From assembly GCF_013403985.1 (NCBI RefSeq), contig NZ_JABFDF010000002.1, positions 186,001-250,000 of the forward strand: 64,000 nucleotides of DNA, written 5' to 3'. Below are positions 54,147 to 64,000 of the stretch, piece after piece. This DNA is from Winogradskyella ludwigii. GTDB taxonomy: Bacteria > Bacteroidota > Bacteroidia > Flavobacteriales > Flavobacteriaceae. The notes under the pieces are model-generated. The model was given only the letters and a program-made list of their open reading frames with translations, made no database searches and had not been told where the DNA came from. Position numbers and translations under genes: made by a program. Positions within the stretch are counted from its first letter, which is position 1, and each line of letters begins with the position of its first letter.

Positions 54147-55118
54147 TTACTCAATTTCTATTTGTTTATCACTTGCTCGCTTAGAAGCTACCACGCTAAT
54201 AACCAATATTTGCGTCGCATGAAACAACATTAAAGGCAACAACATAATACCTATAGTTGCCATGTTACCAAATATTATTTTAGAGAAAACGGTACCATGA
54301 ACTAACGATTTTTTAGTTCCGCAAAACTGTGCTGTAATTTGGTCTTCTTTGTTCATGTGTAATTTCCGAGCAATAAAACCAGTCAACCAAAAAGCAAGTC
54401 CAAACAATACAACGACACCTATAAAGAGATAAAGCAAGTCTAAAAGTGAGACAGCACTAAAAATGTTGTTATAAAAAGATTCTGCAAAACTTTTGTAGAT
54501 AATTAACAAGATAATAGATTTATCAAATAAGGTTAGCTTACTACTATGCTTACGCGCAAATTCCCCAAAAAAGCGTTGTAATAAAAGTCCAAAAATTACA
54601 GGTAAAATAATCTGAATTATTAATTTTAGGTAAATTTCAGTAAAATCAAAATCGGTTTGAGAGTTGTCTATGAATAAGCCCATCCAAAGCGGCGTCAGTG
54701 CAATTCCAATAATTCCAGAAATACTTGCATTAAAAATTGCAGCTGGTATATTTCCTTTTGCCATAGATACCATGACAACAGATGAAGATACTGTTGATGG
54801 TAACGCTGCTAAGAAAAAGAAAGCTAGCCAGATGGTTTCTTGTTCTTCATTTTGAATAAATGGTCTTAGAATTAAGACTAATAGTGGAAACATTAAAAAT
54901 GTAGAACCTTGAACTAAAAGGTGCAATTTCCAGTTTTTGAGCCCTGCTCTTAATTGTGTTGGACTCAATTTTAAGCCATAAAAAAAGAAAATAAGTGAGA
55001 TTCCTATGGCACTAATCGTGTTTGTAGGAATTTTACTATTCTCGATTCCCCATTCTGGAAAAAAATAAGCTATAATTATTACAACTATTATGGATAATAC
55101 AAATTTATCGATCTTCAT
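54147..55118 (-). CDS. Bile acid:Na+ symporter-family (SBF-like) transporter
   Basis: 323 residues with about ten TM helices. TISAIGISLIFFFYGLKLSP, AALPSTVSSSVVMVSMAKGN (crossing helix motif) and QFCGTKKSLVHGTVFSKIIF (second crossing motif) are hallmarks of the SBF/BASS-like YfeH group. These import Na+-coupled organic anions (bile acids, 2-keto acids) in characterised members. Substrate here unknown. Confidence 0.9.
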   Translation of the reverse strand: MKIDKFVLSIIVVIIIAYFFPEWGIENSKIPTNTISAIGISLIFFFYGLKLSPTQLRAGLKNWKLHLLVQGSTFLMFPLLVLILRPFIQNEEQETIWLAFFFLAALPSTVSSSVVMVSMAKGNIPAAIFNASISGIIGIALTPLWMGLFIDNSQTDFDFTEIYLKLIIQIILPVIFGLLLQRFFGEFARKHSSKLTLFDKSIILLIIYKSFAESFYNNIFSAVSLLDLLYLFIGVVVLFGLAFWLTGFIARKLHMNKEDQITAQFCGTKKSLVHGTVFSKIIFGNMATIGIMLLPLMLFHATQILVISVVASKRASDKQIEIE

Positions 55119-55288
55119 ATTTAGGTATAGACTCTAATGTCTTAGTTTAAAACGCTAAAATAATATCAAATAATCACTTAATAGACAAGTGCGTTATCTT
55201 AATTCTTTTCAACCTTAAACGTTTTATTTTTAAAAATAACAGATTTAAAAAATTAGGAAAATTTTAAAAAAAAGAAGACCTTTACATT

Positions 55289-55654
55289 GTGAAGACAGCA
55301 ACTCTCTTTCTAGCATTATTTATGCTTTTGAAGCCTACCATTCCCTTTGTGGAGTACGCTGCTTTCTATGACTATATTAAAAACGAACTTTGCGTTAATA
55401 AAGACAAGCCCGAATTGGCTTGTAATGGTAAATGTCATTTAATGCAAGGATTGGCCAAAGCTTCCGATTCAGAAAATAGTAAAGACAAAAATCACTCATC
55501 ATCTTCAGAACACCAAGTTGTGTTTTTTCATGATGCCTATAAAATTCCTCTTGTTTCTTTTATTAAAGAACAAAATTCTAAAATAGTTACTTCATACAAC
55601 AGAATTTATAAATTCCATTTTACAGATTCTATTTTTCATCCACCACTAGTATAG
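55289..55654 (+). CDS. Small secreted Cys-motif protein (121 aa), island member 1
   Basis: 121 residues from a GTG start, chosen because it gives a hydrophobic N-terminal segment (KTATLFLALFMLLKPTIPF). The core is C-V-N-K-D-K-P-E-L-A-C-N-G-K-C-H-L, with three cysteines, followed by a Ser/Glu/Asp/His-rich linker and a C-terminus HPPLV. A close paralogue lies at 58883 inside the copper island (14 of 17 motif residues identical). I infer metal (copper) handling from cysteines and neighbours; no enzyme domain is seen. A terminator follows, so it is separate from the receptor operon 308 bp downstream. Confidence 0.78.
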   Translation: MKTATLFLALFMLLKPTIPFVEYAAFYDYIKNELCVNKDKPELACNGKCHLMQGLAKASDSENSKDKNHSSSSEHQVVFFHDAYKIPLVSFIKEQNSKIVTSYNRIYKFHFTDSIFHPPLV

Positions 55655-55680
55655 TTTCAACATAGAGACTCTTTTTTTTA
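55653..55680 (+). terminator. Intrinsic terminator of Cys-motif gene 1
   Basis: AGTTTC / GAGACT (one G-U pair) with a 6-nt loop and a run of eight T. Confidence 0.6.
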
Positions 55681-55962
55681 AGAACTTGTATTTAGCAAAA
55701 TGATTTTTCATTTCGCCAAATGATGCTATCTATTATTTTAATAAGGAATAATTCATTCCTCTTAAAATGTGGTATAAAATAGCCACATCAAAAGCATTGC
55801 ACACCGTTCTCTATACACGAGGTTTCTATCCTTATTTCCCATAGTTACGCTTGGTTGTACAATCATTGTATTGACCTTAAAACTAATATGTCTAATAATA
55901 TTTTAGACATCAATAGTCGCAACTATAATTTCAAGAGTTTTAAATAAAACACTTTATTAGTT
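55655..55962 (+). promoter_or_regulatory. 308-bp region upstream of the copper island operon, with operator-like dyad
   Basis: No ORF supported. The strongest feature is the inverted repeat ATGTCTAA (55888-55895) / TTAGACAT (55903-55910) separated by 7 nt, centred about 64 bp before the lipoprotein ATG at 55963. This is an 8-7-8 operator-like site for a dimeric repressor or activator. Upstream sequence also has a short hairpin AAATGA/TCATTT. I see no known riboswitch. Confidence 0.55.
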
Positions 55963-56886
55963 ATGAAAAAGATTTCTTTTTTTATGACTGCAATGCTATT
56001 TGCAGTTACCGCATGTACCTTAGACAAAACAGATTACGAAGATGAAATAAACACCGTAGTTACAGAATACATTGATTACGAAGAGGTTGTTTCCATCACA
56101 AAAGATCAATATTTAATTAATATAGTGGCATTAAACGGAACATTCTATAAAGGTTATAACGAAATCCGTTTAAATATCACTAATACTGATACAAACGAAA
56201 ATGTAAACACCTCTGATGTTACATTTTTACCACTTATAACTAATTATAGTGGAAATAGCACATCTTGTCCACATCAATACAACTTAGATTACAATACTGC
56301 TGACGATTATTATTTAGGATATGCCGTATTCACTGAAGAAAGTAATGATTCTGAAAACTGGGAACTTTACATCACTTTTACTGATAATGAAGAAACACAT
56401 TATGTAACACAAGCTATTACAGTTGAAGAGCAAACTAACATGAATTTAAACATGACGTCCTTTACTGCAGATGATGGCGAACAATATTTTATAGCTTTAG
56501 TTGCACCACAGAAACCTGCAATAGCAGAAAACGAATTAGTTGCAGGTATTTATAAATACAATCAGCCCACAAATGAGGCCGGAACTTTCCCTGATCCCAC
56601 TCAATTTTCATATACAGAAGTTACTGATTACACCTTATTGTTGGACCCAAGAATGCCAGAACCTTCTATGGGAAATCATTCATCTTTAAATAATGAAGAC
56701 CTCACACAACAAGATGATGGTTTATATTATGGTGTGGTGAATTATACAATGACAGGTAACTGGACTTTAAACTTTAGAATGCAAAATCAATATGGTGAAA
56801 TCATTAAAGGAACTGAAGTTTCTACTGAATTTACACCAGGTATTGAAGGTGCAAGAAGTGAATTACATATCGATATATTATTTTAA
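55963..56886 (+). CDS. Two-repeat YtkA/FixH-like lipoprotein with Met/His motif
   Basis: 307 residues. Signal ends AVTAC (lipobox Cys18). Two similar beta-sandwich halves are visible: the first has FLPLITNYSGNSTSCPHQYN, the second DPRMPEPSMGNHSSLNNED (Met231, Met236, His239). The MPxPSMGxH pattern resembles YtkA/FixH-type copper-chaperone domains. It sits immediately before (2 nt) the OprC-like TonB receptor and is the first gene of the operon. Inference: surface lipoprotein that captures or hands on copper to the receptor. The family call is by pattern, not a search. Confidence 0.7.
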   Translation: MKKISFFMTAMLFAVTACTLDKTDYEDEINTVVTEYIDYEEVVSITKDQYLINIVALNGTFYKGYNEIRLNITNTDTNENVNTSDVTFLPLITNYSGNSTSCPHQYNLDYNTADDYYLGYAVFTEESNDSENWELYITFTDNEETHYVTQAITVEEQTNMNLNMTSFTADDGEQYFIALVAPQKPAIAENELVAGIYKYNQPTNEAGTFPDPTQFSYTEVTDYTLLLDPRMPEPSMGNHSSLNNEDLTQQDDGLYYGVVNYTMTGNWTLNFRMQNQYGEIIKGTEVSTEFTPGIEGARSELHIDILF

Positions 56887-56888
56887 GA

Positions 56889-58877
56889 ATGAAGCGATTA
56901 CTAATCATATTTACACTTTTACTTTCTAATATTTTTGTCAATGCACAAGACACTAATAAAAAGAAAGACAGCATTATAGCGTTAGATGAAGTTGAACTCA
57001 TTACTGTTATTAAAAAGAAGATTGAAACCGAAATGAAAATGGCCGTTTCAGTTGATGAATTTTTAGCATCATCAGATAATATTAGTTTTATAAAACGTGG
57101 CGCTTATGCTTGGGAACCGTTATTAAATAACATGAGTTCTGAACGTTCTACCATTACCATTGATGGCATGCATGTTTTTGGTGCGTGTACCGACAAAATG
57201 GATCCCATAACCTCTTATGTAGAAAGCAATAATTTAGCCGCTATTGATATAAAATCTGGACAAGAAGGTAATATGCATGGTGCTACTGTTGCCGGAAGCA
57301 TCGATTTAAAACGAAGGAGCACGCCTTTTAGTTTGACTAAAAAATGGAAAGGTGCCTACCAAACTGGTTTTGAGATTAATAACAAGCAGTTTTTTAACTT
57401 AGCAAATGCTTCTTATTCTAGTAATAAATTTGTAGCCGATGGAAGTTTGGCCTACAGAAAAGCAGAAAATTATAGTGATGGAAATAACGATGAAGTTAAT
57501 CACTCTCAATTTACAAAATTCAACGCGTCATTAGGATTAGCTTATAAAACCAGTGAATTATCTTCTTTAAAAGTAGAAGCAATTTATGACCAAGCCAATG
57601 ATGTTGGTTATCCTGCATTGCCAATGGATTTATGGTTATCACGTGCCTTAATTACCTCAGCAACGTATAAGCAATTATTTGAAAATGGACTATTTAAAGC
57701 CTTAGATACCAAAATCTATTTTAATGCTATTGAGCATTATATGGATGATACCACACGTCCTGAAAATTTGGTTCATATGGATATGCCAGGTTGGAGTACA
57801 ACTTACGGTTTGTTATCTAAAGCTAACATTAAAAAAAATCGTTTTAGTTCAGAAATTCAACTGAATGCTTATAACAATTACTCTATTGCAGAAATGCGCA
57901 TGTATCCACAAGACCGAAGTGAACGTACCATGTTTGCTTACAGTTGGCCTGGAGTTACAACGACATTTGCAGGTTTATCTATAAACAACGCTTGGGAAAT
58001 CTCGGATCAAAGTTTACTGAATTTTGGTGGTTCTTTAGGTGTCAATTATAACCATTCTAAATATGTGGAATTCAACTGGATTTTTCACCCAGGAACACCA
58101 CAAGAAAAAACAAGAATACTGCCTAGTTTACACGCAGGCTATCAGTTAAACATTGATAATTTCAATTTTTCTGTAGGAGGTGGTTACGGACACCGAGCGC
58201 CATCAGTTTCTGAAGGTTATGGCTATTACATCTATAATAGTTTTGATCGTTACGATTATATTGGAAATCCGGATCTAGAAAATGAAATATCATACGAAGG
58301 AAATGCAAGTGCTGGCTACGCTAATGATAAATTTAGCTTACAAGCCAATGTAAATTACTTCTACATTGAAAACTACATTATTGGTCGTATTTTAAGTTTA
58401 GGAAGTCCAATGAATTATCAATCAATTGGTGTAAAAGGTTATACCTCTTTAGATTATTCAACCTTATTTAATTTTTCATTAAATGGAAGCTATTCAATTT
58501 TAGATAATTTACATTGGAAAGGGACTTTAACCTACGCGAGAGGAAAAGATGAGAATGAAAACAATTTGCCATTCATTAGACCATTAAGTTATCAAACCTC
58601 ATTACACTATCAGTATAACAAACTTAGTTTTCAAACGTCTATTAATGGCGATTTAGAACAAATTCATTACAGTCCAGAATACGGAGAAGACCAAACGCCA
58701 TCATACACTATATGGAATCTATCTGCAGATTACACCTTCAAAATTAAAGATTATAAAACGGTAGTTCAAGTTGGTGCAGAGAATGTATTAAATGAATATT
58801 ACAGTACGTATGCAGATTGGGGAAACATTCCACGTATGGGTCGTAATATTTTCACTTCTTTAAAATTCAATTTCTAA
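56889..58877 (+). CDS. OprC/NosA-like TonB-dependent copper receptor
   Basis: 662 residues: signal peptide, TonB-box region, plug and 22-strand barrel ending LKFNF. There is no carboxypeptidase-like N-terminal domain, unlike most flavobacterial SusC receptors. The plug carries GACTDKMDP, i.e. Cys100-x-x-x-Met104, and the barrel carries EHYMDD, i.e. His283-x-Met285. P. aeruginosa OprC binds copper through a CxxxM (143/147) and HxM (323/325) pair; the spacing between M and H (179 here, 176 there) is nearly the same. The DGMHVFG/DKMDP plug pattern also fits the NosA/OprC group. Copper import is therefore well supported by motif. Operon with 55963, 58883, 59310 (5-nt and short gaps). Confidence 0.85.
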   Translation: MKRLLIIFTLLLSNIFVNAQDTNKKKDSIIALDEVELITVIKKKIETEMKMAVSVDEFLASSDNISFIKRGAYAWEPLLNNMSSERSTITIDGMHVFGACTDKMDPITSYVESNNLAAIDIKSGQEGNMHGATVAGSIDLKRRSTPFSLTKKWKGAYQTGFEINNKQFFNLANASYSSNKFVADGSLAYRKAENYSDGNNDEVNHSQFTKFNASLGLAYKTSELSSLKVEAIYDQANDVGYPALPMDLWLSRALITSATYKQLFENGLFKALDTKIYFNAIEHYMDDTTRPENLVHMDMPGWSTTYGLLSKANIKKNRFSSEIQLNAYNNYSIAEMRMYPQDRSERTMFAYSWPGVTTTFAGLSINNAWEISDQSLLNFGGSLGVNYNHSKYVEFNWIFHPGTPQEKTRILPSLHAGYQLNIDNFNFSVGGGYGHRAPSVSEGYGYYIYNSFDRYDYIGNPDLENEISYEGNASAGYANDKFSLQANVNYFYIENYIIGRILSLGSPMNYQSIGVKGYTSLDYSTLFNFSLNGSYSILDNLHWKGTLTYARGKDENENNLPFIRPLSYQTSLHYQYNKLSFQTSINGDLEQIHYSPEYGEDQTPSYTIWNLSADYTFKIKDYKTVVQVGAENVLNEYYSTYADWGNIPRMGRNIFTSLKFNF

Positions 58878-58882
58878 AATAG

Positions 58883-59251
58883 ATGAAAAGAGTTTTTAGT
58901 TTACTTATAACGTTTCTGTTTCTGCTTGTGATTTCACAACGCGCAGTCGTTATGGTGCACTTTAAACTCAACCAAAAAATTATCGCCAAACAATTCTGTG
59001 TTAACCAAGATAAACCCGAATTACAATGTAACGGAAAGTGTTATTTACATAAAGAATTACAAAAAACAGAACATAAAGATTCCGAAAAAATAATTAACAC
59101 AAAGAATTTTGATTTGGTTCTCAATCCAAATTACGAATATCATATAGACATAAAAAAAATCACCAAGAAAAAAGAATTAGTCATTTACCAAGAAACCCAA
59201 CACAAAGAACCTTATTTAGAAATTTTAGTTCCACCACCCATATATGTTTAG
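58883..59251 (+). CDS. Small secreted Cys-motif protein (122 aa), island member 2
   Basis: 122 residues. A hydrophobic N-terminus (VFSLLITFLFLLVISQRAVV) is followed by C-V-N-Q-D-K-P-E-L-Q-C-N-G-K-C-Y-L, identical at 14 of 17 motif positions to the protein at 55289, then Lys/Glu-rich sequence, and the C-terminus VPPPIYV. It lies 5 nt behind the copper receptor and 58 bp before MbnP, firmly inside the operon. The paralogous pair suggests a conserved step around copper delivery. No enzyme motif. It has three Cys within a 15-residue loop, a plausible Cu(I) site. Confidence 0.8.
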   Translation: MKRVFSLLITFLFLLVISQRAVVMVHFKLNQKIIAKQFCVNQDKPELQCNGKCYLHKELQKTEHKDSEKIINTKNFDLVLNPNYEYHIDIKKITKKKELVIYQETQHKEPYLEILVPPPIYV

Positions 59252-59309
59252 TTTTTTGTAGCATACTAAAAATAAAAACACGCATATCAATAAATACAAA
59301 ATTTCAAAA

Positions 59310-60176
59310 ATGAAAAATCTTAAAAATTATATTTTATCAGCAGCAGTATTAGTCGGTTTTATGTCATGTAGTAGTGATGATAACAATGCCGTTGCAAACA
59401 ATGTGACATTAGAATTTACAAACACGTTTAACAATACAACAATTGTTCTTGGAGATGCAACTTCTGCAGATGCCACAGAAAACACTTCTGAAATGGGACA
59501 AGTTCACCATTTTTCTGAATTAAAATATGTTGTAAGTAACATTCGTCTTATAAAAGCTGATGGAACCGAAATTCCTTATAATGTAAATGATTTAGACAAT
59601 GGTGCAACAGTAATAAACCAAGCAAATACTGAAACACTAAGCTATGTATTAAGTGATATCCCAGTTGGAGATTACACTGAAATAAAGTTTGGTTTAGGTG
59701 TAAAATCTGATTTAAATGATTTAGACCAAGTTAGTTTCCCTGAATTTTATGATAACGCAGGATCTAATGAAACACAAATGCATTGGGAATGGGGAACAGG
59801 ATACCGTTTTACTAAAATTGAAGGTTTCTACGATACCGATAATAAAGAATTGTCTTTCCATTCTGGAAGTACTTTAGAAGGAGAAGAAGGTAATTACACA
59901 CAAGGTGTTGATGCTTATAGAGATATCACATTAAGTCTTCCTACTACAGCTACTGTTGGTAATAGTGCACCAACAATTGCTATTAACGCTAATTTTGATT
60001 ATTTATTAAGTGGAGAAAACTATACTATAACATTAGTTACTACTGAAGATATTACTAATAACGCTACACCTAGTGCTCATACAGCTACTGAAATGATGAA
60101 GTTTGTAGAGAATATTGGAGGCAACGGAACAACTGATACAACAGGAATGTTTTCTATTACTTCTGTAGAAAACTAA
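59310..60176 (+). CDS. mbnP: MbnP-family copper-binding protein
   Basis: 288 residues. Lipobox MSC (Cys20). HFSELKYVVSNIRLIKADG, VPVGDY-type turn IPVGDYTEIKFGLGV, and MHWEWGTGYRFTKIEG are the MbnP family signatures. The Trp pair at 159 and 161 is a good candidate for the tryptophan that its partner MbnH converts to kynurenine to create a copper site, as shown for MbnP/MbnH pairs. The MbnH-type peroxidase gene follows 79 bp later. Last gene before a strong terminator. Confidence 0.88.
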   Translation: MKNLKNYILSAAVLVGFMSCSSDDNNAVANNVTLEFTNTFNNTTIVLGDATSADATENTSEMGQVHHFSELKYVVSNIRLIKADGTEIPYNVNDLDNGATVINQANTETLSYVLSDIPVGDYTEIKFGLGVKSDLNDLDQVSFPEFYDNAGSNETQMHWEWGTGYRFTKIEGFYDTDNKELSFHSGSTLEGEEGNYTQGVDAYRDITLSLPTTATVGNSAPTIAINANFDYLLSGENYTITLVTTEDITNNATPSAHTATEMMKFVENIGGNGTTDTTGMFSITSVEN

Positions 60177-60189
60177 ATCTATATTTTAT

Positions 60190-60228
60190 GAGTCGGTTTT
60201 GATGAAAAACTCAAGCCGACTCTTTTTT
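60190..60228 (+). terminator. Intrinsic terminator between mbnP and mbnH
   Basis: GAGTCGGTTT / AAGCCGACTC (one G-U pair) with a ~13-nt loop, followed by TTTTTT. It sits between two partner genes, so read-through would set a high MbnP:MbnH ratio. Confidence 0.82.
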
Positions 60229-60255
60229 AACTATTCTTCATCATATATCTTACAA

Positions 60256-61281
60256 ATGAAAAACCTATTAAGAACCTTATTTATTGTACTGTTATTGTCT
60301 TCGTGTAGCAATGATGATTCATTGCTTGTTTCTTATAACAATCCTGAGGTATCATTAAATATTCCTAGTGATTTCCCTGAACTAAACAGTTCATTTTACA
60401 CCAATATACCTACCGAATTTGGTGTAGAGTTAGGTAAAAAACTATTTACCGATGTACGTTTAAGTACAGATAATACAATTTCTTGCTCTAGTTGCCATAT
60501 ACAAGAAAGTGCCTTTGCAGATCATAATCCAAAAGGTATAGGTATTGAAGGACGAATAGGACTTCGTAATGCACCACCAGTTCAAAACATGGCTTTTATG
60601 CAAGTTTATAATTGGGATGGCAATAAGCTTCAACTCGAAGATCAACCATTAGTCCCTATTATTACACATGAAGAAATGGACTCTTCTATTTTAGAAGTTA
60701 TTGGTAAAATTGAAAATGATGAATCTTATATTGAATTATTTAAGAATGCCTTTAATGGTGAAGGAATTACTGCAGATGGAATTTATAACAGTATAGCTCA
60801 ATATGAATACACACTTATTTCAACAAACAGTAAATACGATAAAGTAAAACGAAATGAAGGTGAAACATTCACAGAAAGTGAAGCTCAAGGATTTGCCGTT
60901 TTTCAAGAAAAATGTATCAGCTGTCATAGTACAGAATTATTTACGGATCAAACCTATAGAAATATCGGATTTCCTATAAACCCAGACACTGAAGAAGCAG
61001 GACGAGCAAGAATTACAGGAAGTACTGAAGATTACATGAGTTTCCGTGTACCGAGTTTAAGAAATATTGAATATACATCACCTTACGGCAGTTTTGGGCA
61101 ATTTGCAACCTTAGAAGACGTACTCGATTATTTAAATAATGGTGTTTTAGAAGCCGATAATCTTGATCCTATTTTAAAAGATAATGACAATAGAATTCCA
61201 CTTACCGCACAAGAAAAAATAGATCTAATAGCTTTTATGAAGACTTTAAGTGATTCTGAATTTGTAAATCTTGATAATTAA
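60256..61281 (+). CDS. mbnH: MbnH-type di-haem cytochrome-c peroxidase
   Basis: 341 residues from ATG 60256, which gives the lipobox LLSSC; an upstream in-frame ATG at 60199 would bury it and overlaps the terminator. Two c-type haem sites are visible: CSSCH (Cys77-Cys80-His81) and CISCH (Cys220-Cys223-His224). This is the bacterial di-haem peroxidase/MauG family, and the lipoprotein subtype beside MbnP is MbnH, which oxidises the MbnP tryptophan. The stop lies in the adjoining Fur-type gene's 3' end (4-nt overlap, convergent). Confidence 0.9.
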   Translation: MKNLLRTLFIVLLLSSCSNDDSLLVSYNNPEVSLNIPSDFPELNSSFYTNIPTEFGVELGKKLFTDVRLSTDNTISCSSCHIQESAFADHNPKGIGIEGRIGLRNAPPVQNMAFMQVYNWDGNKLQLEDQPLVPIITHEEMDSSILEVIGKIENDESYIELFKNAFNGEGITADGIYNSIAQYEYTLISTNSKYDKVKRNEGETFTESEAQGFAVFQEKCISCHSTELFTDQTYRNIGFPINPDTEEAGRARITGSTEDYMSFRVPSLRNIEYTSPYGSFGQFATLEDVLDYLNNGVLEADNLDPILKDNDNRIPLTAQEKIDLIAFMKTLSDSEFVNLDN

Positions 61282-61652
61282 GAACAATTCTTACAAACCC
61301 CAGTTAAAACACAATTTACACTTTCAACCAAATAACCATCTGGAATAGAAAAATTAACCTGATTAGGAAGACACTCTACGGTATCACATTTTGTACATTT
61401 AAAATGAAAATGTTGATGTGTTGCGGCTTTGGTGTCATAAGTTTCACACAAAGCAAAATACTGCTTACCATCTTCCGCCATGACTTTATGAAGCACACCA
61501 TCGTCACAAAATCGATTTAAAACACGATAGATGGTTGCCCTATTGATATCAATAGCAATTTCTTCCTCAATCGCATCTTGACTCATCGCTTTCCCTGCCT
61601 TAGTTATAACACTTAAAACGGCTTCTTTACTAGGCGTATTTCTTCTTTTCAT
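61278..61652 (-). CDS. Fur-family metal regulator, probably Zur-like
   Basis: 124 residues. Winged helix (DINRATIYRVLNRFCDDG, recognition helix) followed by HFHFKCTKCDTVECLP, the Fur metal-site His/Cys segment, and a C-terminal zinc pair CVLTGVCKNC. Cys pairs for structural zinc are intact. I favour a Zur-like role because it lies divergent to a MerC-domain gene and a zinc-type TonB receptor, with a palindrome in the promoter. PerR or Fur cannot be excluded from sequence alone. Confidence 0.82.
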   Translation of the reverse strand: MKRRNTPSKEAVLSVITKAGKAMSQDAIEEEIAIDINRATIYRVLNRFCDDGVLHKVMAEDGKQYFALCETYDTKAATHQHFHFKCTKCDTVECLPNQVNFSIPDGYLVESVNCVLTGVCKNCS

Positions 61653-61668
61653 TATTAATGCGATTTAT

Positions 61669-61687
61669 TTGCAATAATTTATTGCAA
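61669..61687. promoter_or_regulatory. Near-ideal Fur/Zur-type palindrome
   Basis: TTGCAATAA-T-TTATTGCAA is a perfect 9-1-9 inverted repeat, 17 bp upstream of the Fur-family start. Further TTGCAA copies occur at 61693-61698 and 61720-61725. The last overlaps the TATATTTG -7 element (61715-61722) reading toward the MerC gene, so a bound regulator would block both promoters. Confidence 0.7.
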
Positions 61688-61714
61688 CAACATTGCAATA
61701 TTATAAATAAATAA

Positions 61715-61722
61715 TATATTTG
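61715..61722 (+). promoter_or_regulatory. -7 element of the MerC/zinc receptor operon
   Basis: TATATTTG, exact TAnnTTTG, 57 bp before the MerC start and overlapping the last TTGCAA operator half. Confidence 0.6.
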
Positions 61723-61778
61723 CAAAACTTACTAATGCGACAAAATCGCTTTAATAAATCAATATAAGTCAAATAAAA

Positions 61779-62177
61779 TTGAAGAACGTGAGCAGAACAA
61801 AAAACAACCCTCTAGATATTATAGCAATGACAAGCTCATTAGTTTGTGCTATTCATTGTGCTTTTCTGCCAATATTGCTTTCGTTTTCATCTTTTAGCAG
61901 TTTATATTTTTTAAATAACCCAATGATTGAGTGGACCTTTATTTGCCTAGGTCTTGTATTTATATTCACTTCACTTTGGCCTAGTTATAAAAACACCCAC
62001 CATAAAACTAAACCTTTAAAAGTCGCTTTATTAGGTTTTTTACTTTTAGCAATAAGTAGACTTCACTTAACGGATTTATGGGAAGTTAGCAATACCGCTA
62101 TTGGCGCTACTTTAATCGCTTTTGCGCATTATATTAATTGGAATTTATTAAGAAGAATAGCGAAACAAAAACAGTAA
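61779..62177 (+). CDS. MerC-domain membrane protein
   Basis: 132 residues with about four TM helices. CAIHCAFLPILLSF in the first helix region holds the metal-binding Cys-x-x-x-Cys plus His of MerC. It begins at a TTG (61779), with GTG 61788 as alternative; both keep the MerC fold. MerC moves Hg2+ in mercury operons, but no mer genes are here and flavobacterial MerC-domain proteins typically sit next to Zur. Zinc or another divalent metal is more likely. Confidence 0.82.
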   Translation: MKNVSRTKNNPLDIIAMTSSLVCAIHCAFLPILLSFSSFSSLYFLNNPMIEWTFICLGLVFIFTSLWPSYKNTHHKTKPLKVALLGFLLLAISRLHLTDLWEVSNTAIGATLIAFAHYINWNLLRRIAKQKQ

Positions 62178-62244
62178 ATCACAACTTTAGCACATTTTAA
62201 ACCATTGTAATAAACTCAAAAACCTTAAATATTTCTAGTCTTAA

Positions 62245-62538
62245 ATGAAAAACAGCATCACATATTTCTTTATTATTCTTTTTCTATCCATTAAGTTGTT
62301 AGGACTTCATGCATTAACGCATGAAGATGATAAAGATGATGCTGTACATTGTGCAGTTTGTGATAATGCAACAATTCATAATTTAACGCCTGCTTTTATA
62401 CTAGAGCCTCAAGAATTTTCAATTGAAAATACCGAGCTAATCATTAATAGAAGTACAATAAAGCATTTCTCTTTTGTAACTTCTAATACCATTGCTTCTA
62501 ACCAATTATTTGGTCGGCCTCCACCCTATTCACTATAA
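62245..62538 (+). CDS. Small secreted His/Asp/Cys peptide (97 aa)
   Basis: 97 residues. Signal peptide (ITYFFIILFLSIKLLGLHA) then HALTHEDDKDDAVHCAVCDN, dense in His, Asp and Cys, a candidate metal-binding patch. The C-terminus reads LFGRPPPYSL. Its Pro-Pro end resembles those of the two Cys-motif proteins of the copper island (HPPLV, VPPPIYV). It lies 67 bp behind MerC and 188 bp before the receptor, in the same direction. Function inferred as zinc-related. Confidence 0.78.
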   Translation: MKNSITYFFIILFLSIKLLGLHALTHEDDKDDAVHCAVCDNATIHNLTPAFILEPQEFSIENTELIINRSTIKHFSFVTSNTIASNQLFGRPPPYSL

Positions 62539-62726
62539 ATTATCCTATACTTTTTTATTAAAATAAGTTTCGTTTAACTACTTAACGCTTCAAGCTACAT
62601 TATAGATTTCAACAACGTTGATTTTATAAATTATTGTAATTGATGCAACTATTTAATACGAATAAATATAGGCTTTGTTAAAGTTCAATCTTAAGAACAG
62701 TTAATTAAATTTTATAGTATTTCATT
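62539..62726 (+). other. 188-bp gap before the partial receptor
   Basis: No ORF. It contains the short palindrome CAACGTTG inside TTTCAACAACGTTGATTTTA (positions near 62610) and no exact -7 element. The only near match, TAGGCTTTG, has one base too many between TA and TTTG. Confidence 0.4.
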
Positions 62727-64000
62727 ATGTTTTACAGAACACTGAGTTTATGGCTATGCTTTAGCTTTAGCTCAATATTGTTTGCGCAAGATTCTTTTCA
62801 AATAAAAGGAATTGTAGCAAACGCAAAAACTTTACAACCTATTGAAGGTGCTAATATTATTGGCAAAGGTTCATTTTCTACGTCGTCATCTACAGGGATT
62901 TTTACTTTAAAAAATGTTTCTGAAGGCGACTATACTTTCACCATATCGCATTTAGGTTTTACTTCTAAGACTATAACTGTTAACGTAGGAAACGATCAAG
63001 AAACACATAAAATTTTATTAGAAGAATCTACCACTGCGCTTGATAAAATTGAAATTAATGGAAAAACAAAAAAAAGAGAACGTAATGAATCACCTGTAGT
63101 TTCACAGCTAGTAACTAAAGAATTTCTTTCTAATAACAGAGAGAATAGCCTGATGCAAACGCTTAGTAAAATTCCAGGTGTCAGTACTATTAAAATTGGC
63201 TCTGGACAATCTAAACCTGTGATTAGAGGTTTAGGCTTTAACAGAGTTGCTGTGGTTCAAAATGGTATAAAACACGAAGCACAGCAATGGGGAAATGATC
63301 ATGGGTTAGAAATTGATCAATATGGAATTGAAAATATACAAATTGTAAAAGGACCTGCTTCATTAGTTTACGGATCAGATGCTATTGCTGGTGTTGTAGA
63401 TATTCAACCCAATAAAGTACCCCTTATTAATTCTTTTAGTGGTGAAGTAAATGTATTAGGTGAAAGTAATAATGATTTATTAGGAATTTCAGCAGGAATC
63501 CAAGCAAGAAAAGAAAAATGGTTTTATCGTGGACGTATTACATACAGAGATTATGGCGACTACAAAGTACCCACAGATAAAATAAATTACGAGAGTTATA
63601 TCTTTGAGTTATACGATAATAATTTACGTAATACAGCTGGACGAGAAGCTAACGCTAGTATAAGTCTCGGTTATGTCACTGATAAATTCACCTCAGAAAC
63701 GACGATTAGTAATGTTAACGCTAAAAACGGTTTTTTTGCCAATGCACATGGTTTAGAAGTTAGAACATCTAGCATAGACTATGATAGCTCTAACAGAGAT
63801 ATTGACCTTCCCTATCATAAAGTTAACCATTTTAAAATTACAAATAACACCTCATTAGCTTTAGACAAACACACTATTCATGCTGATTTAGGCTTTCAAA
63901 ATAATATTAGAGAAGAACATTCAGAACCTGTACCGCATGGTTTCATGCCAACACCTTCTAATAGCAAAGAGCGAAGTTTTAATAAAAACACATTTTCTCT
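62727..64000 (+). CDS. TonB-dependent receptor with carboxypeptidase-like N-domain, zinc-type (partial)
   Basis: Start ATG 62727 with signal peptide (FSFSSILFAQ); the gene runs off the right edge after ~424 codons, so only the N-terminal domain, plug and first barrel strands are seen. IKGIVANAKTLQPIEGANI and FTLKNVSEGDYTFTIS form the carboxypeptidase-regulatory-like domain. The plug has KIPGVSTIKIGSGQSKPVIRG and QWGNDHGLEIDQYG, a His/Asp-containing loop that resembles the zinc receptor ZnuD group. Context with the Fur-type regulator and MerC supports zinc uptake. Barrel completeness cannot be judged. Confidence 0.85.
   Translation, partial: MFYRTLSLWLCFSFSSILFAQDSFQIKGIVANAKTLQPIEGANIIGKGSFSTSSSTGIFTLKNVSEGDYTFTISHLGFTSKTITVNVGNDQETHKILLEESTTALDKIEINGKTKKRERNESPVVSQLVTKEFLSNNRENSLMQTLSKIPGVSTIKIGSGQSKPVIRGLGFNRVAVVQNGIKHEAQQWGNDHGLEIDQYGIENIQIVKGPASLVYGSDAIAGVVDIQPNKVPLINSFSGEVNVLGESNNDLLGISAGIQARKEKWFYRGRITYRDYGDYKVPTDKINYESYIFELYDNNLRNTAGREANASISLGYVTDKFTSETTISNVNAKNGFFANAHGLEVRTSSIDYDSSNRDIDLPYHKVNHFKITNNTSLALDKHTIHADLGFQNNIREEHSEPVPHGFMPTPSNSKERSFNKNTFS

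Follow-up and report, generated by a model that had tools for sequence, protein, structure and literature searches.

The window examined here is a stretch of 64,000 nucleotides from Winogradskyella ludwigii (RefSeq assembly GCF_013403985.1, contig NZ_JABFDF010000002.1, positions 186,001 to 250,000). It carries six genes in a single direction, which encode a small Cys-motif protein (SCP1), a beta-sandwich lipoprotein with a YtkA-like domain (YTK), a TonB-dependent receptor resembling OprC, a second small Cys-motif protein (SCP2), and a pair of lipoproteins of the MbnP and MbnH families (together, MbnPH; Table 1). A copper-acquisition island of seven kilobases had been predicted at this place from the sequence alone. 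The list of open reading frames (ORFs) and family scans confirmed all six genes, their common direction and, closely, their positions, although the real span is 6.0 kb. Sequence, fold, motif and gene-order data support the description of a copper island built around an OprC-like receptor and an MbnP/MbnH pair, and copper uptake is very probably the role of the block. SCP1 begins with GTG, which aligns with the ATG of its relatives, while MbnH, previously read from a TTG at nt 60199, was moved to the ATG at nt 60256 because all 81 MbnH sequences share this Met.

Table 1. Features of the six-gene block, with positions numbered from the first letter of the window
Feature	Position (nt)	Strand	Remarks
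SCP1, small Cys-motif protein	55289..55654	+	C-x9-C-x-G-K-C; C-terminal FHPPLV; proposed copper-sensing leader ORF
SCP1 Pro-Pro codons, residues 118-119	55640..55645	+	proposed stalling motif
SCP1-YTK gap, 308 nt	55655..55962	+	structured RNA, z -4.2; proposed attenuator region
YTK, beta-sandwich lipoprotein, YtkA-like C-terminal domain	55963..56886	+	invariant Met231, His239, Met263, Trp267
OprC-like TonB-dependent receptor	56889..58877	+	sequence, motif alignment, fold model
Receptor Cys100-xxx-Met104, plug half of predicted copper site	57186..57200	+	alignment with relatives
Receptor His283-x-Met285, barrel half of predicted copper site	57735..57743	+	alignment with relatives
SCP2, second small Cys-motif protein	58883..59251	+	C-terminal VPPPIYV; same place in 37/80 clade loci
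MbnP-family lipoprotein	59310..60176	+	HWEWG (WxW); invariant His66, His184, Met262; +2..+6 SSDDN
MbnH-family di-haem MauG-like lipoprotein	60256..61281	+	corrected start; +2..+6 SNDDS

The gene order is kept well beyond one strain. Among 149 genomes drawn from the family, 36 have a receptor at E ≤ 1e-40, and 20 stretches were fetched from these, one of them being the second copy in the W. ludwigii genome itself. All 7 stretches of the window clade hold SCP, YTK, receptor, MbnP and MbnH; the remaining 13 hold SCP, YTK and receptor, and MbnP or MbnH in none. Across the phylum, at least 47 of 395 genomes have the receptor (E ≤ 1e-60; a lower bound, as three candidates were scored per genome) and 96 have MbnP, and a count by eye found the two as neighbours in 18 genomes (18/47 and 18/96, respectively). 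In the 80 nearest named loci, out of 573 confirmed, YTK, receptor, MbnP and MbnH follow one another in this order without exception. Two peptide patterns, one of them containing CxxxM, served to select these 80, and the set over-represents the window clade and its motif, whereas the draws of 149 and 395 genomes, and a set of 40 receptors described below, were made without the motif. An SCP stands ahead of YTK in 77 of the 80, the other three loci starting less than 1.1 kb from the receptor at a contig end. Median gaps, computed from mechanical ORF starts, are -17 nt (YTK-receptor), 31 nt (receptor-MbnP), 64 nt (MbnP-MbnH) and 265 nt (after SCP1), the first three being short enough to fit one transcript. 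Hosts belong to the Flavobacteriaceae, Weeksellaceae, Sphingobacteriaceae and Chitinophagaceae, and the closest named receptor, from W. undariae, is 99% identical. In a receptor tree of 70 rows with a midpoint root, the MbnPH clade is a single group (support 100), and three gains or losses of MbnPH are required, in a count that leaves out rows lacking an MbnPH, nos or OprC label. In a distant receptor group, MbnP-MbnH lie ahead of the receptor, not behind it. A second 'MBNH' label in three Winogradskyella loci, at 35-38% identity, was regarded as spurious: L051, the only example scanned, proved to be a DUF4625 lipoprotein, and none was counted.

When the receptor was searched against PDB with phmmer (E ≤ 0.001), six OprC sequences were its only relatives (best E 7.3e-9), and the alignment places CxxxM and HxM in register, column by column, with those of OprC, whose copper site is Cys143/Met147/His323/Met325 (PMC8610252). 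A fold search with the AlphaFold2 model (predicted local distance difference test score, pLDDT, 76.9) returned OprC chains at ranks 1-28 (query TM-score 0.76-0.81; 16-17% identity over the fold match), with ZnuD after them at rank 31 and a B12 receptor with its surface lipoprotein (8bmx) at ranks 39, 40 and 42. The corresponding ligands, Cys100, Met104, His283 and Met285, are retained in 32 of 32 receptors of the protein-search sample, a set of 29 relatives from the family sample, L050, the window and the paralogue that was picked without use of the motif. Likewise, ACxxxMDP and HxM are found in 40/40 receptors drawn by protein or profile search without the motif, many of which score just 143-410 bits to the clade profile. 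In the window plus the 80 loci, where 80 of the 81 came from the two peptide patterns, the four ligands and nine Met residues are invariant. The spacing of 179 residues given in the original prediction is correct for Met104-His283, but it is only close to that of OprC, not equal: three Proteobacterial OprC relatives have 176-177, and from Cys to His they have 180-181 against 183 for Cys100-His283.

The receptor shares with OprC/NosA (PLoS Biol 2021, PMC8610252) the CxxxM-HxM site, the barrel-plug fold and conserved Met residues, but a place among the orthologs of OprC is not supported. It scores 80.3 bits to the NCBIfam copper receptor model TIGR01778, where the equivalog cut-off is 472.45, and slightly more, 87.8 bits, to a model of another class (TIGR01786, haemoglobin/transferrin/lactoferrin receptors; cut-off 323.75). 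The latter score counts against a copper assignment, while PDB sequence and fold searches both place OprC best. In the tree, the three Proteobacterial OprC relatives group with Bacteroidota receptors from four loci (L149, L156, L157, L165; support 99), outside the window clade. Judged by its sub-threshold score and tree position, the receptor belongs to a sister group rather than to the orthologs of OprC, and it further differs from OprC/NosA in having a YtkA-like lipoprotein partner and, in its clade, MbnPH. The aligned ligands and the gene context predict that it is likely a binder and importer of ionic copper. The receptors of the four loci named above have an OprC-like ACPxRMDP and adjoin an SCP, with no recognised YTK.

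The W. ludwigii genome carries a second receptor, 44% identical to the first, with its own SCP and YTK. This cassette lies behind nosZ (PF18764), nosL (PF05573), nosD (PF05048), genes for an ABC ATPase and a likely permease, and one small ORF; it is without MbnPH, the window copy of MbnP being the only one in the genome. Outside the MbnPH clade nos genes are present in 22 of 52 loci, compared with 1 of 88 inside it, in fetched stretches of unequal length. Copper as the substrate is supported by this proximity of nos genes to sister receptors, and the nos-linked cassette suggests two copper supply lines, one of which would connect copper supply with the removal of the greenhouse gas N2O. A similar Flavobacteriaceae receptor with CxxxM-HxM, G2EC70 of Bizionia argentinensis, is listed with a NosL gene only a few loci away (Environ Microbiol Rep 2024, PMC11213822) and looks like the nos-linked type; in the accessible text of that paper, neither MbnPH nor a small Cys protein or a YtkA partner is named for it. 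At L031:840-13216 (G000:C25) the nos cluster is followed by SCP-YTK-receptor and then by a ScdA_N/hemerythrin protein and, as judged by eye, an apparent Rrf2-type regulator. At L039:8218-10218 a nos-linked receptor gene is interrupted, as deposited, by a single in-frame stop.

The two small Cys-motif proteins had been regarded as extra parts of the transport route. They look rather like copper-sensing leader ORFs that control the operon, since their Pro-Pro end, the near-constant distance of this from the Cys motif and the structured gap behind SCP1 reproduce the layout of CruR and CutF. An SCP was recognised either by a BLAST match to SCP1/SCP2 or by its Cys pattern, and Pro-Pro was not a criterion. 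It is found at the C-terminal end in 153 of 158 SCPs, within the last 14 residues in 85/86 SCP1, 36/38 SCP2 and 32/34 non-clade SCPs, and in only 9 of 742 neighbouring proteins taken as controls. The three Cys are invariant in SCP1 (86/86) and SCP2 (38/38), and the last of them is 65-70 residues (standard deviation 1.28) from Pro-Pro in SCP1 and 63-65 (standard deviation 0.6) in SCP2. The SCP1 columns conserved at 80% or more are limited to K2, I30, C35, C45, G47, C49, L51, K53, F116, P118 and P119, the middle being variable, and a hydrophobic N-terminus is visible in the SCPs. The SCP1 gap of the window folds better than all of 100 shuffles. In the window and 23 further loci (gaps of at least 120 nt, trimmed to 250 nt, with 25 shuffles for each), the mean z of the SCP1 gaps is -2.69 against -1.40 for coding DNA (24 each, p 0.0014); here, as in the other shuffle, Fisher and rank tests, related sequences are taken as independent, and the values are guides only.

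In Bordetella, the leader ORF CruR carries a Cys motif and a C-terminal RAPP and is followed by a long gap, behind which lies a copper TonB-dependent transporter; OprC-type receptors and MbnPH-like genes occur in operons of its relatives (PMC9426467), and in vitro work has demonstrated the arrest of CruR (PMC12992588). CutF combines a Cys motif with C-terminal prolines and acts in the sense opposite to CruR (PMC9973294). Like these, an SCP is a small exported-type ORF with a Cys motif, C-terminal prolines, a gap and a TonB-dependent transporter behind. Of the properties listed for CutF-like proteins (PMC9973294), the SCPs show the Cys/His metal motif and a C-terminal motif confined to the last 15 residues, and the SCP1-to-downstream gap (75-433 nt in 77 pairs, same strand) is within the limit of 1000 nt. 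After normalising, Bacteroidota hold 40% of the CutF-like proteins (PMC9973294), and with such numbers the SCPs may already be in that list. C-terminal-proline leaders of secA and secDF that occur exclusively in Bacteroidota have been described (PMC10987492), and RAPP/RGPP leaders of TonB-related genes are reported as universal in Gram-negatives (PMC12992588). In three Proteobacterial records, the small ORF before oprC ends in RAPP, and DUF2946 (PF11162) matches both of the two scanned.

Several observations weigh against the leader-ORF reading. Unlike CruR and CutF, the SCPs have C-x(8-10)-C-x-G-x-C (CxxxC, not CXXC), ends of FHPP/VPPP type rather than RAPP, and a spacing of 63-70 residues instead of 45; DUF2946 matches none of eight Bacteroidota small proteins scanned (six of SCP1/SCP2 type, one group-C protein and an HCAVC protein of the neighbouring island, described below). 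Bacteroidota are reported to lack RAPP/RGPP leaders ahead of Cu-related genes (PMC12992588), which could be explained by the FHPP/VPPP ends there. The invariance of the three Cys is partly built in by the way SCPs were called. Six of the 24 SCP1 gaps have z above -2 and eight of the 24 coding controls are below it; the gap behind SCP2 is short and unstructured (58 nt, z -0.45), SCP2 is missing from its mid-operon place in 43 of 80 loci, and outside the clade many SCPs are followed by a short gap, down to 42 nt. In the twin cassette behind the nos genes, ORFs on the same strand closely precede SCP, which may therefore not head the transcript there. As CutF and CruR act in opposite senses, the direction of regulation given below is tentative. 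Rfam gave no match in nt 55000-62000 up to E 0.5, and a promoter/terminator scan stayed near shuffle levels (49 versus a mean of 41.4, standard deviation 7.0; 5 versus 3.4, standard deviation 1.8) with no terminator-like site within the SCP1 gap. When that gap was aligned across eight Winogradskyella-type sequences, of which one was truncated, the divergence was too great for base pairs to be scored.

The same proteins could instead serve as Cu(I) chaperones, periplasmic or tethered to the membrane, and pass on imported copper, with Pro-Pro in a structural role. Conserved ORFs, a hydrophobic N-terminus and a three-Cys motif would suit this, and CxxxC is common among Cu-binding proteins (PMC9973294). 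However, folding does not easily account for a near-universal terminal Pro-Pro in proteins whose middle is poorly conserved, and neither the long gap behind SCP1 in the clade nor the RAPP-ending, in two cases DUF2946-matching, ORF at the same place before three Proteobacterial oprC relatives favours a chaperone, so that this explanation is doubtful. Two side observations concern related small proteins. A fourth SCP relative in L177:1483-1689 (G000:C22, near 136156) has 68 residues and the three-Cys motif, lacks the C-terminal Pro-Pro, and looks like a remnant; no copper gene was recognised by eye in about 3 kb of sequence there. Near ten distant receptors (L131, L132, L133, L135, L137, L138, L140, L141, L159, L161) is a Cys/His-rich protein of 142-160 residues ending in RPP or KPP, perhaps a further leader-ORF family.

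YTK had been called a YtkA/FixH-like lipoprotein. The window copy scores 23.2 bits to Pfam PF13115, under the cut-off of 25.9, while its same-genome paralogue, at 30.1, is over it. Its model is confident (pLDDT 85.1), but Foldseek gave no specific relative, the 50 matches listed being nearly all antibody-like beta sandwiches (query TM-score 0.12-0.22). Met231, His239, Met263 and Trp267 are kept in 53/53 sequences across clades and are likely to form a copper site.

MbnP passes PF20243 (122.1 bits, gathering score 27) and falls under the equivalog cut-off of TIGR04052 (59 versus 140). Trp159 and Trp161 of its WxW, His66 and His184 are invariant in 81/81 sequences, which is compatible with a kynurenine copper site, and no more than that. 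Sequence and profile searches of MbnP against PDB found no believable relative. MbnH has two c-type haem motifs in 81/81 sequences (C96/C99/H100 and C239/C242/H243, numbered from the TTG start) and falls under the TIGR04039 cut-off (197.9 versus 362.85 bits). Against PDB, its profile put a di-haem enzyme, 6e1c, which we take to be MbnH, first of 27, and a single-sequence search put it seventh. MbnH enzymes have a Tyr where peroxidases have the distal Met on the second haem; the aligned position in the present family is Phe in 61 and Leu in 20 of the 81 sequences, never Met, and an invariant Tyr311 lies one place before it.

A pair made of an MbnP-family protein and a di-haem MauG-like protein recalls MbnP/MbnH of methanobactin operons, CorA/CorB and MopE/SACCP (PMC3621798, PMC3912023), and the WxW and two invariant His are shared with known MbnP-type pairs. 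It differs from the methanobactin-operon pairs in its fixed association, within the window clade, with an OprC-like receptor, its surface-lipoprotein signals, and a genome without an MbnB-family gene. The reported lack of a methanobactin gene held for the MbnB/TglH/ChrH family (PF05114; 0/1, own genome), no search for MbnA-type precursor peptides having been made. Pairs of this stand-alone kind had been described before, and MbnPH without methanobactin are widespread (PMC3621798).

The location of the pair is suggested by its lipoprotein N-termini. An adjacent acidic pair at +2 to +6 after the lipobox Cys, the type of surface lipoprotein export signal (LES) described for Bacteroidota (PMC5080379), is present in 69/79 MbnP and 55/81 MbnH, including both proteins of the window, versus 0/80 window-clade YTK and 24/75 neighbouring control lipoproteins. 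In the YTK of the nearer nos-type clades it is found in 15 of 20; the twin's own YTK has STDND, acidic with no adjacent pair. CorA is surface-associated, and MopE and SACCP occur together on the cell surface (PMC3912023). The original prediction let copper cross the outer membrane before reaching MbnP, whereas these signals suggest that MbnP and MbnH are outside the cell, ahead of the receptor. We read MbnP/MbnH as the putative surface partner of the receptor here, and YTK as that partner in the wider clade of the twin. Bacteroidota have SusCD/BtuBG-type pairs of a receptor and a surface lipoprotein; the block resembles these in combining a TonB receptor with lipoprotein partners, some bearing surface signals, and differs in its predicted substrate, copper.

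Here too there are points on the other side. CorB is mainly periplasmic (PMC3912023), 22/81 MbnH have fewer than two acidic residues at +2 to +6, the YTK of the most distant clades have the acidic pair in just 5 of 24, and there are surface proteins among the control lipoproteins. For the Trp-to-kynurenine step the basis is the family names, because no PDB relative of MbnP was found. The earlier view, of a periplasmic MbnP/MbnH that loads or stores copper after the receptor, draws on the location of CorB and on the acidic pair being found in a third of the neighbouring lipoproteins (24/75) and missing in 26/81 MbnH. It is less likely, given the enrichment of the signal in MbnP/MbnH, its absence from YTK of the same operon, and a count by eye of 0/12 NosZ and 0/17 NosL lipobox N-termini with the pair.

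Import of copper not as the bare ion but in complex with a chalkophore or a protein would have precedents in Bordetella CrtA, which imports chelated copper (PMC12914433), and in isolated Methylosinus MbnPH pairs near MbnT-like receptors (PMC3621798), but it is improbable for a receptor that conserves the full CxxxM-HxM ion site, when the CrtA logo is without conserved Cys or Met (PMC12914433). That the receptor serves another metal, above all zinc, is hardly credible: a Fur-family gene (nt 61278-61652, - strand) overlaps the end of mbnH with a MerC gene next to it, and ZnuD comes soon after OprC among the fold matches, but a Zur-like gene is in the fetched stretch of just 8 of 80 clade loci, of which 5 are from Winogradskyella and have it on the other strand, and the conserved ligands are of the copper Cys/Met type with nos and MbnPH partners, so a zinc role for the six-gene block was rejected.

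Taken together, we infer an operon for copper scarcity, with leader-ORF sensors, surface MbnPH, receptor and YTK, to which we give a probability of about 0.5. SCP1 at the head of the operon and SCP2 in its middle would both act as leader ORFs. A ribosome would pause at the C-terminal Pro-Pro of an SCP once the three-Cys motif has left the tunnel, and copper bound to this motif would alter the pause and turn the downstream genes off, as in the logic of CruR. MbnH and MbnP would be lipoproteins flipped to the cell surface, where MbnH may oxidise one Trp of the MbnP WxW and so build a copper site with which MbnP captures copper outside the cell. The receptor would bind the ion at Cys100/Met104/His283/Met285 and import it with TonB energy, and YTK, which in the window clade has no export signal, would take over the ion in the periplasm, at its Met/His site. 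The leader-ORF and surface parts are well patterned predictions from sequence.

Flavobacteriaceae receptors with CxxxM-HxM, MbnPH outside methanobactin operons and Bacteroidota CutF-like proteins are already in print. The block itself was not described in any title among the matches listed in the open-licence literature on MbnPH, OprC, nos, leader ORFs and CutF-like proteins. Only tentatively do we put forward, as a joint proposal, a leader class belonging to Bacteroidota (C-x(8-10)-C-x-G-x-C with C-terminal FHPP/VPPP at an almost fixed distance) with two members per operon in many species, a surface MbnP that feeds the receptor and has its copper site built by a surface MbnH, and, in the same cell, a sister cassette with the same leader and receptor but with surface YTK in place of MbnPH, for nitrous oxide reductase. 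What is conserved in this major marine and soil phylum is a set comprising an ion-site receptor, a pair that possibly builds a surface site, and possible translational copper sensors; the leader reading, if true, would give a role to many small Bacteroidota proteins of unknown function.

The end of the window (nt 61278-64000) belongs to a separate neighbouring island, a relative of which is found in L051:12390-17576. It holds the Fur/Zur-like gene on the - strand that overlaps the end of mbnH, followed by MerC. A protein of 97 residues has HCAVC and a C-terminal GRPPPYSL with 52 residues between them, and after a long gap comes a CarboxypepD/Plug TonB receptor; in L051 there are also two DUF4625 lipoproteins, one of them His-rich. 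This may be a zinc island with a leader ORF of its own.

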